Shown here one piece after another: positions 1 through 3,684 of a DNA stretch of 64,000 nucleotides. Below the pieces are notes generated by a model. The model was given only the letters and a program-made list of their open reading frames with translations, did not search any database and was not told where the DNA came from. The stretch lies in contig NZ_AP017898.1 of the NCBI RefSeq assembly GCF_003609835.1, positions 2,480,001 through 2,544,000 of the forward strand. Reading direction: 5' to 3'. Within the stretch, counting starts at the first letter, position 1. Every line of letters begins with the position of its first letter. The translations under genes and the position numbers were made by a program. This DNA comes from Sphingopyxis sp. FD7. Lineage in GTDB: Bacteria; Pseudomonadota; Alphaproteobacteria; Sphingomonadales; Sphingomonadaceae.

Positions 1-1213
1 CGATCGCATCATCGACGAGCACGCCGGCGACCAGGCTGAGCGCGAGCAGCGACAGGCCGTTCAGCGAAAAGCCCATCATTTCCATGAACCAGAAAGTCGG
101 GATCGCCGACAGCGGGATCGCGAGCGCGCTGATCAGCGTCGCGCGCCAGTCGCGCAGGAACAGGAAGACAACGACCACCGCGAGCACCGCGCCCTCGATC
201 ATCGCCAGCATCGAGCTGCGATATTGTTCCTTGGTATATTCGGTGCGCGTGAACAGGATCTTGAAGTCCACCTTGGGGTTCGCCTTCTTGATCTGTTCCA
301 GCTTCTTCATCGTCTCGTCATGCACGGTGACGTCCGAGGCGCCCTTGGCCTTTTCGATCGAGAAGCTGAGCACCTGCCGCCCCTTGATCTTCGCGAGGTT
401 GCGCTGCTCGGCATAGCCGTCGGTCACTTTTGCGACATCCGCCAGACGGATCGTGCGGCCGTTGCCGATCGAAATGCGCGTCTCGCCGAGCTGGAAGGCA
501 CTGCCCGCATTGCCGAGCACGCGCACTGCCTGTTCGCTCCCGGCGATTTCGGTGCGCCCGCCCGCGGCGTTGACGTTCACCTGCCGCAATTGCTGGTTCA
601 CCTGGCTTGCCGTCAGGCCATAGCTTTGCATCCGCGCGGGATCGAGGATCACGCGAATCTCGCGATCGACGCCGCCCGACCGGCGAACCTGGCTCATGCC
701 GGGAATCGAGAGCAATTCCTTCGCCACCGTATTATCGACGAACCATGACAGTTGCTCCAACGTCATGTCGGTCGCCTCGACCGCGAAATAGGTGATCGGG
801 CCGCCGGCAATGTCGACGCGGACAACCTGCGGTTCAAGGATGCCGTCGGGCAGGTCGCTGCGGATCTGCGAGATCGCCTGGTTGACATCGTTATAGGCGC
901 GGTCGATCGGCGTGCCGATCGCAAACTGCACGTTCGTTACGCTCGTGCCCTCGCTGACATAGGAGGACATTTCGTCGACCCCGCTCACGCCGCGAACCGC
1001 CGCCTCGACGCGCTGCGTGACCTGTGTTTCCAGCTCGGTCGGCGCCGCGCCGGGTTGCGATACGACAACACGAACGGCCGGGAACTCGACGTCGGGATTG
1101 TCGTTGACGTCCATCCGGTTGAAGCTGACGAGCCCCGCAAGCAACAACAGCACAAAGAGGACGATCGGCGGCACCGGATTACGAATTGACACCGCGGAGA
1201 TGTTACGTAGCAT
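1..1213 (-). CDS. RND efflux transporter permease, N-terminal part (window-truncated)
   Basis: Inner-membrane proton-driven pump of the AcrB/MexB (RND) superfamily; about 404 N-terminal residues are visible and the gene runs off the left edge. TM1 is at about residues 15-33. A periplasmic porter region follows, with TM2-TM4 near residues 335-404. The last residues, GVLVDDAID, match the TM4 motif holding the paired proton-relay Asp residues. The ATG at 1213 is preceded by a good GGAGG ribosome site. The membrane-fusion protein on the same strand (2401-3561) is the natural operon partner, but an insertion sequence now separates the two. The substrate cannot be read from sequence; organic compounds are likelier than metals because no metal-family signature was noticed. 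Confidence 0.93.
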   Translation of the reverse strand, partial: MLRNISAVSIRNPVPPIVLFVLLLLAGLVSFNRMDVNDNPDVEFPAVRVVVSQPGAAPTELETQVTQRVEAAVRGVSGVDEMSSYVSEGTSVTNVQFAIGTPIDRAYNDVNQAISQIRSDLPDGILEPQVVRVDIAGGPITYFAVEATDMTLEQLSWFVDNTVAKELLSIPGMSQVRRSGGVDREIRVILDPARMQSYGLTASQVNQQLRQVNVNAAGGRTEIAGSEQAVRVLGNAGSAFQLGETRISIGNGRTIRLADVAKVTDGYAEQRNLAKIKGRQVLSFSIEKAKGASDVTVHDETMKKLEQIKKANPKVDFKILFTRTEYTKEQYRSSMLAMIEGAVLAVVVVFLFLRDWRATLISALAIPLSAIPTFWFMEMMGFSLNGLSLLALSLVAGVLVDDAI

Positions 1214-1257
1214 TGTGCGCCTCCGAAGCGGGGGTGATTTCAACAGGGAGGTGAAAC

Positions 1258-1285
1258 GTGAAGAAAGACTTCGTTACCGGACTAA
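1258..1285 (+). pseudogene. Original 5' end of the secreted-peptide gene, severed by the IS
   Basis: A strong ribosome site (GGGAGGTGA) is followed by GTG at 1258 and nine codons, MKKDFVTGL. If the IS and one copy of its TAA target duplication are removed, base 1285 joins 2244 and the frame continues straight into KIAAVFALLS of the small peptide gene (end 2371). The restored gene would encode 51 residues with a signal peptide. In its present state this fragment reads into the IS. The GTG lies only 44 bp from the divergent start of the RND permease. Confidence 0.75.
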
Positions 1286-1303
1286 GAGCCTGATCCGAAA
1301 TTA
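1286..1303 (+). repeat. Left terminal inverted repeat of the IS
   Basis: Begins GAGCCTGATCCGAAATTA and pairs with the right end with three mismatches. The adjacent TAA (1283-1285) is one copy of the target duplication. Confidence 0.85.
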
Positions 1304-1388
1304 AGTTGAGTGGTGCCAGCGGGTTAGCTTGACGCGAGCCCAAGTCGCTGATTCACGGGGTTTTGCAACAAACTTCGGGAGTTCAACG

Positions 1389-2210
1389 ATGTGGACCGAC
1401 ACCACCCGGGCGCAGTATGCCCGTGCCGACCTGGCTTTGCCAAGCGATTTGACCGATGCGGAATGGGCCGTGCTGGAGCCGTTACTTCCGGGCCCTTGCT
1501 GTGTAGGGCGACCGCGCAAATGGCCGCTGCGGCGGATCATCGAGGCGATCCTGTATCTGCTGCGCGGTGGGCTGCCCTGGCGGATGTTGCCGCCCTGCTT
1601 TCCTCCGGTCTCGACGGTGCGGCGCTGGTTCTATCTGTGGCGCGACAATGGTCTGTGGCTCTCGCTCAATCACGCCCTGCTGCTGATCGGGCGGGAAGCC
1701 CTCGGGCGCGAGGCTTCTCCGAGCGCTGGGGTCATCGACAGCCAAAGCGTGAAAACCACGGAAAGCGGCGGGCCTTGCGGCTATGACGCAGGCAAGAAGA
1801 TCAAGGGCCGCAAGCGACACATCGTGACCGACACCGAGGGCAATCTCGTTCATGCCGTGATCCACACCGCTGACGTGCAGGATCGCGATGGCGCGCCGTT
1901 TGTTCTGGCCGAGATCATCCGCCGTCACCCTTGGCTCAGGCACATCTTCGCCGATGGCGGCTATGCTGGCGACAAGCTTCGCCAGGCGCTGCGCAAGATC
2001 GGGAAGTGGACGGTCGAGATCATCAAGCGATCCGACCATGCCAAGGGCTTCGAGGTCCTGCCCAGACGCTGGGTGGTCGAGCGGACCTTTGCGTGGCTCG
2101 GTCGCAACCGCCGCCTCGCCAAAGACTTCGAGCAGACCATCGCATCGGCAACCGCGTGGCTGTTCATCGCCTCAATTCAGCTCTTCGTCCGCCGTATCGC
2201 AAGAGCATGA
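1389..2210 (+). CDS. IS5-family DDE transposase
   Basis: Single-frame transposase of 273 residues. The N-terminal part (about residues 15-85) resembles the DUF4096 helix-turn-helix domain of IS5 transposases. The DDE core is visible as GVIDSQSVK (first Asp), IFADGGYAGD (second Asp) and the WVVERTFAW...RRLAKDFE block carrying the Glu. ATG at 1389 is preferred over an upstream TTG at 1329 because a GGGAG site lies about 8 bases ahead of it. The stop codon overlaps the ATG of the downstream peptide gene (ATGA), so the two may be translationally coupled. No frameshift or internal stop is seen, so the enzyme should be intact. Confidence 0.93.
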   Translation: MWTDTTRAQYARADLALPSDLTDAEWAVLEPLLPGPCCVGRPRKWPLRRIIEAILYLLRGGLPWRMLPPCFPPVSTVRRWFYLWRDNGLWLSLNHALLLIGREALGREASPSAGVIDSQSVKTTESGGPCGYDAGKKIKGRKRHIVTDTEGNLVHAVIHTADVQDRDGAPFVLAEIIRRHPWLRHIFADGGYAGDKLRQALRKIGKWTVEIIKRSDHAKGFEVLPRRWVVERTFAWLGRNRRLAKDFEQTIASATAWLFIASIQLFVRRIARA

Positions 2211-2371
2211 AATCTATCGCGATAATTTTGAATCAGACTCTAAAAATTGCCGCGGTTTTTGCGCTACTAAGCACGACCGGAGCCTCAGCGCAGGACTCTG
2301 GTCCTATAGTTTGTAATCCTGCCGACTTGTGGTGCATGGTTTGCCAATCGGTTCCTTGGATGTGCGGTTGA
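2207..2371 (+). CDS. Small secreted peptide with four cysteines; N-terminus supplied by the IS
   Basis: Encodes 54 residues. A signal peptide spans about residues 1-28 (hydrophobic KIAAVFALL, then ASA before the predicted cut). The mature part of about 26 residues carries four Cys spaced C-X6-C-X2-C-X6-C and two Trp. The first eleven codons come from the IS right end and the rest is host DNA; before insertion the gene began with GTG at 1258. The start overlaps the transposase stop as ATGA. The gene lies antisense in the gap between membrane-fusion and permease genes and ends 29 bp from the fusion-protein gene. The symmetric Cys spacing could make two disulfides or bind a metal. No family was recognised and function is unknown. 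Confidence 0.6.
   Translation: MKSIAIILNQTLKIAAVFALLSTTGASAQDSGPIVCNPADLWCMVCQSVPWMCG
2223..2240 (-). repeat. Right terminal inverted repeat of the IS
   Basis: Read on the minus strand it begins GAGTCTGATTCAAAATTA, matching the left end at 15 of 18 positions. TAA at 2241-2243 is the second target-duplication copy. The repeat is itself read as codons of the small peptide gene. Confidence 0.85.
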
Positions 2372-2400
2372 ACTGCATCTGACACGAAACGCGGGCGCCT

Positions 2401-3561
2401 TCACTTCTTCTGCAGCACCGGCTTCACCGTGTCGCCGACGTTGAGGAAGGCGCCGGCGAGCGTCACCACCCGTTCGTTGCCGGTCAACCCCGACGCGATC
2501 GACACGCCCGCGTCGCTGACCGCGCCGACCTTGACCGCCTTGCGTTCGATCTTGTTGTCCTTGCCGACGATCAGCACATAATTGCCCTCGGGCCCGCTCT
2601 GAACCGCGCTTTCGGGAAGCAACGGCAGCTCCGCCGTGCCCGACACGAGGCGTGCATCGGCAAAGCCGCCCGGCCGCAGCACCGACGAATAGGGAATCGC
2701 GATGCGCACCGTGCCCTGGCGCGTGTCCATGTCGATGACCGGCGACACCTGCCACACCTGGCCCGGAATCTCGACGTCGGTGCCGACCGGCGTCACCGTC
2801 GCGCGCGTGCCGACGCGCACGCGGGCAAGGTCGGCTTCGGCCATCTGGGCCAGCATTTCCATCTCGCCGCCGCGCGCCATGCGGAACAGCACCCCGCTGC
2901 CCGCGCCGACGATCTGGCCGGGTTCGACCTGCCGCGTCAGCACCAGCCCCGCCGCGGGGGCGACGATGTTGAGCCGCGCGTTGCGCGCCGTGGCCTCGGC
3001 ATATTGCGCCTGCGCGACGCGGACGCGCGCGTTGGCGGCGTCGCGCGTCGCGCGCTTGCGATCCATGTCGGCCTTGGAAATGAAACCGCGCGACACCAGC
3101 GCCTCGGCGCGCTCCAGCTCAGCCTGCGCCAGATTGGCATCGGCCTGCGCCACACGAATCTGCGCCGCGAGGCTCGCCGCCTGCTGCGACTGCACCGACC
3201 GGTCGATCACCGCGAGCGTCTGACCCGCGCCGACCCACTGGCCGGGCTCGACAAGCACGCGCTCGACCTGTCCCCCCTCGCCCGCAACGCCGACCGGCAT
3301 TTCACGCCGCGCCGCGATCGTGCCGTTGGCGGCGATCGCCGCCTCCACCGACACGCGACCGGGAATGACCACCGTAACGCTCGGCACCGCGGCCGCTTCG
3401 CCGCCACCGGCATCGGCGGCGCCCTTGCCGCTCGAAAAGGCATAATAGGCCGCCGCCAGGGCCAGCACGATGAGCACGACGGCGACGATCAGCCGGGTGC
3501 GCTTGCGCCGGCTGTCGTCGACCTCTTCGTAAAAGCTTTGCGTCCCCGCCAGGCTGTCCAT
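2401..3561 (-). CDS. RND efflux periplasmic adaptor (HlyD/AcrA-type membrane fusion protein)
   Basis: A 386-residue adaptor joining the inner-membrane RND pump to an outer-membrane channel. After a short cytoplasmic tail it has one membrane anchor (about residues 20-42). Next come a lipoyl-like half motif (VLVEPGQWVGAGQTLAVID), an alpha-helical hairpin rich in Ala, Glu and Arg, the second lipoyl half, and beta-barrel and membrane-proximal domains. ATG at 3561 is chosen over upstream Met codons because residues before it look non-native and GGAAAG lies ahead of it. The permease it should serve starts at 1213 on the same strand; an IS and an antisense peptide gene now lie between them. Confidence 0.9.
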   Translation of the reverse strand: MDSLAGTQSFYEEVDDSRRKRTRLIVAVVLIVLALAAAYYAFSSGKGAADAGGGEAAAVPSVTVVIPGRVSVEAAIAANGTIAARREMPVGVAGEGGQVERVLVEPGQWVGAGQTLAVIDRSVQSQQAASLAAQIRVAQADANLAQAELERAEALVSRGFISKADMDRKRATRDAANARVRVAQAQYAEATARNARLNIVAPAAGLVLTRQVEPGQIVGAGSGVLFRMARGGEMEMLAQMAEADLARVRVGTRATVTPVGTDVEIPGQVWQVSPVIDMDTRQGTVRIAIPYSSVLRPGGFADARLVSGTAELPLLPESAVQSGPEGNYVLIVGKDNKIERKAVKVGAVSDAGVSIASGLTGNERVVTLAGAFLNVGDTVKPVLQKK

Positions 3562-3684
3562 CGAATCCACTTTCCGCTCGTAGTTCACGCCGAAATCCCT
3601 CCCTGGCATCACGCGGCGTCGGTTCGGCGCGCATGGGCGCGCCCGCCCCAAAAGTCCGGCATGGCAGGACCAAAACTCTTTCGA

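Follow-up and report, generated by a model that had tools for sequence, protein, structure and literature searches.

When an insertion sequence (IS) enters a gene, is the gene simply broken, or can the element also hand it a new start? This question is raised by a locus in a 64-kb window (the whole stretch of DNA that was analysed, to which plain positions refer) on a 3.70-Mb contig of a genome of 3.94 Mb in total. Here an RND efflux operon on the minus strand has an IS and a short peptide frame between its adaptor and permease genes:

1..1213, minus strand: RND efflux permease gene, 5' portion, with the start codon at 1213 (337.2 bits to Pfam ACR_tran, cut-off 28).
2401..3597, minus strand: RND periplasmic adaptor gene (TIGR01730, 178.9 bits, cut-off 94.9).

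In profile searches the permease scores above the Pfam cut-off and below every NCBIfam permease cut-off. Most likely, the IS inserted recently into an orphan gene for a predicted secreted peptide, and a fusion peptide could be made at a low level. The reading that the IS split this gene and that an ATG at its right end allows low-level synthesis of the fusion via reinitiation is given a probability of about 0.5. Among the points against the fusion, no homologue of the peptide was found in the collections searched, no Shine-Dalgarno sequence precedes the new ATG, the IS part of the fused signal is interrupted and the supporting statistics are post hoc.

The element and its single gene are placed as follows:

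1286..2240, plus strand: IS5-family insertion sequence of 955 bp, ends fixed by nine full-length copies.
1283..1285 (left) and 2241..2243 (right): target duplication TAA, as read from the sequence.
1389..2210, plus strand: IS5-family transposase in a single frame (NCBIfam NF033580.1, 249.7 bits, cut-off 110).

The element is a member of the IS5 family, with a DDE transposase, terminal inverted repeats (15 of 20 end positions alike) and a short target duplication. Pfam DDE_Tnp_1 and DUF4096 were matched on a version of the transposase that starts at TTG 1329. The transposase is one frame of 273 codons, whereas the IS427 group of this family is described, in the excerpt consulted, as mostly having two frames that overlap and are connected by frameshifting (PMC3281130). 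The same excerpt reports one single-frame member of the IS427 group, and assignment to that group is therefore left open.

The genome contains nine full-length copies, which are 100% identical, and two split ones. All nine full copies have 3-bp target duplications (TNA in eight, TAT in one), which bears out the element boundaries and the TAA duplication of the original prediction. A recent burst may explain why the copies are identical. The split copies (C1:1003840-1006067 and C1:1207325-1209552) have one common arrangement, with IS bases 1–930 and 921–955 about 1.26 kb apart. This looks like the insertion of a second element, with a 10-bp duplication, followed by copying of the entire structure. 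Related IS DNA is found in 65 plasmid records, and the relatives among the 20 records listed are 82.4–83.9% identical over the full length. A related stretch is present in at least 6 of 79 other genomes of the genus, a lower bound because scoring was limited to the first few candidates in each genome; the best full-length one is 86% identical. The RND permease gene is flanked by two direct copies (C1:2473377-2474331 and C1:2481286-2482240), which are 7.9 kb apart and have differing duplications, TTA and TAA. Recombination between them would delete the permease gene.

The frame that received the insertion retains the following 5' elements:

1247..1254, plus strand: Shine-Dalgarno sequence GGAGGTGA of the interrupted frame, an 8-nt perfect match 3 nt before the GTG.
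1258..1293, plus strand: 5' remnant of the peptide frame, nine codons of its own from the GTG start, followed by IS bases.
1186..1213, plus strand: promoter-like TTGACA-16-TAGCAT (10 of 12 matches), lying antisense over the first codons of the permease gene.

At present the frame from GTG 1258 is 11 codons long and ends at a stop within the IS (1291–1293). Removal of the IS and one TAA yields an empty-site frame of 51 codons, split by the IS after its ninth codon. Together with the 8-nt Shine-Dalgarno match, this confirms the earlier claim that such a removal restores a frame with a strong ribosome site. The 51-codon product contains two lysines, a hydrophobic run and Ala-Ser-Ala before Gln-Asp, and four cysteines lie within its last 19 residues. 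Its front and that of the fused peptide both pass a crude signal-peptide rule, which makes the two products candidates for Sec export. The interrupted frame probably was a functional gene.

The 229-bp empty site was subjected to 20,000 first-order shuffles, with thresholds chosen post hoc when the sequence was already known. Frames of 51 codons or more, on either strand, arose in 5,486 shuffles; frame length alone thus carries no meaning. The same minimum length combined with a Shine-Dalgarno match of at least 7 nt was obtained in 18 of the 20,000 shuffles, and at least 40 codons with a match of at least 6 nt and the crude signal rule in 6. Between 1100 and 2500, two promoter-like sites with at least 9 of 12 matches were found versus 0.4 expected. 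The second of these is a minus-strand site within the IS. The site at 1186–1213 may once have driven the peptide frame and would now read into the IS, towards which it points. Transcription from the IS, as originally assumed, is thus not required.

No peptide homologue was found in the protein collection, plasmids, phages or viral contigs, nor any match to a known peptide or bacteriocin family in Pfam and NCBIfam. The best match in PHROGs has only an E-value of 0.3 and the best in the PDB, at 0.029, is only a designed protein. Weak matches are present in 27 other genomes among 396 of the family (E 0.008–0.1) and in 2 of 79 genomes of the genus (E 0.01–0.02). Seven of the weak-match regions were read in three forward frames and 21 were scanned in six frames. 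The spacing C-6-C-2-C-6-C occurs in one of these 21 (L132); this stretch is broken by a stop and lies opposite another open frame, and it was taken as a chance match. Since no collection searched holds a homologue, the peptide frame may not be a gene. On the minus strand, a 50-codon GTG frame spans 2233–2385 of the window, in the reading frame of the adaptor and past the adaptor stop. It is not regarded as a gene.

According to one alternative, the plus-strand frame never was a gene, and the 229-bp segment is a recombined-in, non-coding spacer that served as a target for the IS. The missing homologues, the frequency of long frames in the shuffles and the presence of the minus-strand frame agree with it. 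However, an 8-nt Shine-Dalgarno match, a signal-like front and four cysteines are jointly rare (6 of 20,000 for a weaker combination), and a promoter-like site with 10 of 12 matches lies upstream. This alternative is considered improbable, and the preferred reading remains that a peptide gene was split.

Comparison with relatives sets the history of this gene. The sequence around the IS that they do not have consists of two parts:

1214..1285, no strand assigned: left part of the segment absent in relatives; the nearest-relative alignment ends at 1207 and 2408.
2241..2400, no strand assigned: right part of this segment, holding the 3' end of the peptide frame with its stop at 2369–2371.

The gap between adaptor and permease is 1,187 bp here; beside the IS and one additional TAA, it comprises 229 bp of other sequence. 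In the nearest relative, Sphingopyxis sp. LK2115, the gap is 41 bp. The two genomes are 94.4% identical on both sides; the alignment breaks at 2408 and resumes at 1207. The gap is too short for the peptide gene in all of 109 relative loci (two overlapping collections, 94 distinct junctions), and it measured 1–54 bp in 100 of them. The original prediction had expected an uninterrupted gene in relatives lacking the IS, and none of the 109 loci has room for one. The possibility that the peptide gene is ancestral at this site was rejected for this reason. The lack of an open frame in relatives had been named in advance as speaking against the reconstruction. That lack is literally observed, but the whole 229-bp segment is absent there. 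The latter indicates that this lineage probably acquired the peptide gene first and the IS afterwards.

The G+C content of the 229-bp segment is 0.541, and equally low values occur in 1.0% of 3,189 windows of the same size. The right part (2241–2400) has a DNA match in none of 59 other genomes. The flanking genes also differ at their ends. The final codons of the adaptor gene are unlike those of relatives, and the permease N-terminus reads ISAV versus ISAW in 108 and ISAL in one of the 109 relative loci. ISAW is also found in all 120 permease N-termini among the database matches listed (461 matches). In the simplest reading, a segment replaced the junction and brought in the peptide gene with its ribosome site, along with a promoter that overlies the first codons of the permease. 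A donor of the altered permease start was found neither among the listed database matches nor in the genomes of the order or in a paralogue. Across 395 other genomes of the order, no match to the permease-start DNA extends past the start codon apart from three of 23–29 bp, and the best-matching paralogue in this genome (67%) starts normally. The two parts of the segment share no direct or inverted run of at least 8 nt and thus have no end repeats of that length; a small mobile element was rejected as an explanation of the segment. GGAGG, derived from the replaced segment (1214–1230, minus strand), is located 6 nt 5' of the permease ATG and is absent at that position in all seven close relatives compared. 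Permease translation may therefore also be altered.

Orphan gene gain on the 229-bp segment would thus be the first step, and the splitting of a predicted secreted four-cysteine frame by the IS5-family element the second. The right end of the element opens a new frame:

2207..2371, plus strand: fusion frame of 54 codons with stop TGA at 2369–2371, putatively translated.

This frame comprises 11 IS codons, one junction codon and 42 codons of the interrupted frame. As the original prediction stated, the right end supplies an in-frame ATG at 2207 that overlaps the transposase stop (TGA, 2208–2210) as ATGA. In the excerpt of PMC10666635, a 4-nt overlap of stop and start, as found here at 2207–2210, is the arrangement in which termination–reinitiation is efficient. 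No Shine-Dalgarno sequence of at least 4 nt is present at usable spacing before ATG 2207, and without one, translation would rest on reinitiation at the overlap. Ribosomes that end the transposase would then re-initiate at 2207, so that the 4-nt overlap would couple translation of the two frames. Transposases generally receive little translation. The in-frame TTG 2228 is a second candidate start.

The outward codons of the IS read MKSIAIILNQT. In the fused signal, Asn-Gln-Thr of the IS part and a lysine interrupt the sequence ahead of the original hydrophobic run. Charge, hydrophobic run and cleavage-like site are retained in the fused frame, and the new front end may still direct export of the fusion peptide.

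The ATG is carried by all nine full copies, 34 bases from the end. After a TNA duplication the next two codons are CTN and Axx, neither of which is a stop; in the copy with the TAT duplication, the outward frame stops at the duplication. Five of the nine full copies were counted as co-directional disruptions, namely the one in the peptide frame and the following four:

C1:1271513-1272467: IS in a molybdopterin oxidoreductase gene (nitrate reductase/formate dehydrogenase-like), ATGA start in frame.
C1:42616-43570: IS in a sulfotransferase gene, co-directional, IS start out of frame.
C1:1000734-1001688: IS in a DUF6933 gene, co-directional, out of frame, family match on the left side only.
C1:1623520: IS in a 300-codon frame without a family match, co-directional, IS start does not fit.

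The last frame is unconfirmed as a gene because it has no family match. In two of the five, the peptide and the molybdopterin oxidoreductase, the IS start is in phase with the interrupted frame. In the latter, a second such fusion, 595 codons remain in frame with the IS start. The other four full copies, which are intergenic, antisense or of unclear setting, were excluded. On the left side, two of these touch frames of 244 and 168 codons that have no family match and would not fit; their inclusion gives two of seven. The chance expectation is one in three. The fit at the peptide frame is thus at chance level. The original prediction had the start of the gene re-created by the insertion. An in-frame ATG indeed exists, but the wording overstates the case, because this start is present in every full copy, fits in two of five cases and has no Shine-Dalgarno sequence of at least 4 nt. 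In summary, the sequence had been read correctly; the history was probably a different one, a gene gain followed by a chance in-frame start from the IS.

The same counts bear on two further explanations. In one, the insertion was selected, as the new front end yields a useful, differently regulated secreted peptide. The preserved charge, hydrophobic run and cleavage-like site would suit this. However, the other eight full copies are just as identical and scattered, and the insertion is known from one strain. The frame fit has the one-in-three chance of any co-directional insertion and is best read as not reflecting selection, which is very improbable here. In the other, the insertion simply knocked out the peptide gene, and the ATG is in frame by coincidence and never translated. 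The missing Shine-Dalgarno sequence at 2207, the chance-level fit and nine identical, scattered copies as expected of ordinary transposition are in line with this. The ATGA, on the other hand, has the form of a coupled-translation overlap (PMC10666635, excerpt), and the promoter-like site points into the IS. A knock-out is a plausible, though less likely, explanation, and low-level reinitiation on the split gene is preferred.

Several known systems resemble parts of this arrangement. ISEc61-like plasmid elements of the IS5 family match this IS over its full length and have the same ends. Among six plasmid copies read, all from sphingomonads or Croceicoccus, four have ATGA 34 bases from the right end and an open outward frame, with outward codons more charged than MKSIAIILNQT. 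The other two, unlike this IS, have TAG as the stop and no ATG. Coupled genes described in the excerpt of PMC10666635 likewise have 4-nt overlaps, here again ATGA without a Shine-Dalgarno sequence of its own. In contrast to those pairs, the upstream gene is a transposase, the downstream one is whatever the IS adjoins, and the case is known from sequence. In Acinetobacter, insertion of ISAba1 leads to a truncated AdeS, and the effect is lost when the start codon is removed (PMC3498117). That case shares an IS inside a gene, a shortened product and a start codon near the IS; it differs in that ISAba1 brings a promoter. The excerpt of that report does not establish whether the AdeS start lies within the IS or overlaps the transposase stop. 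In Paracoccus, IS5-family elements alter expression of downstream genes via outward promoters, although IS1248 of the IS427 group, another IS5-family member, gave none, which counts against the preferred reading (PMC3281130). Those elements offer promoters, whereas the present one offers a start codon. The literature searched, in part as excerpts, yielded no earlier account of an IS end at which an ATG shares bases with the transposase stop and opens a fusion with a neighbour; other wording may have been used there.

A broader idea is that this IS lineage carries a portable translation start, with ATGA 34 bases from the end and a frame that the usual TNA cannot close. One in three co-directional hits in genes would then give a transposase-coupled fusion instead of a knock-out, and at this locus a secreted peptide would have been given a new signal sequence. 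This idea is rather unlikely.

Two steps within one efflux operon seem to be recorded in the window: an orphan peptide gene, with a promoter-like site over the first codons of the neighbouring permease, was gained and then split by an IS. If the fusion frame is translated, an IS would do more to genes than break them or supply promoters, as it would also provide a start codon linked to its transposase. Such fusions could then be predicted for any genome by reading the frame at the right IS end.
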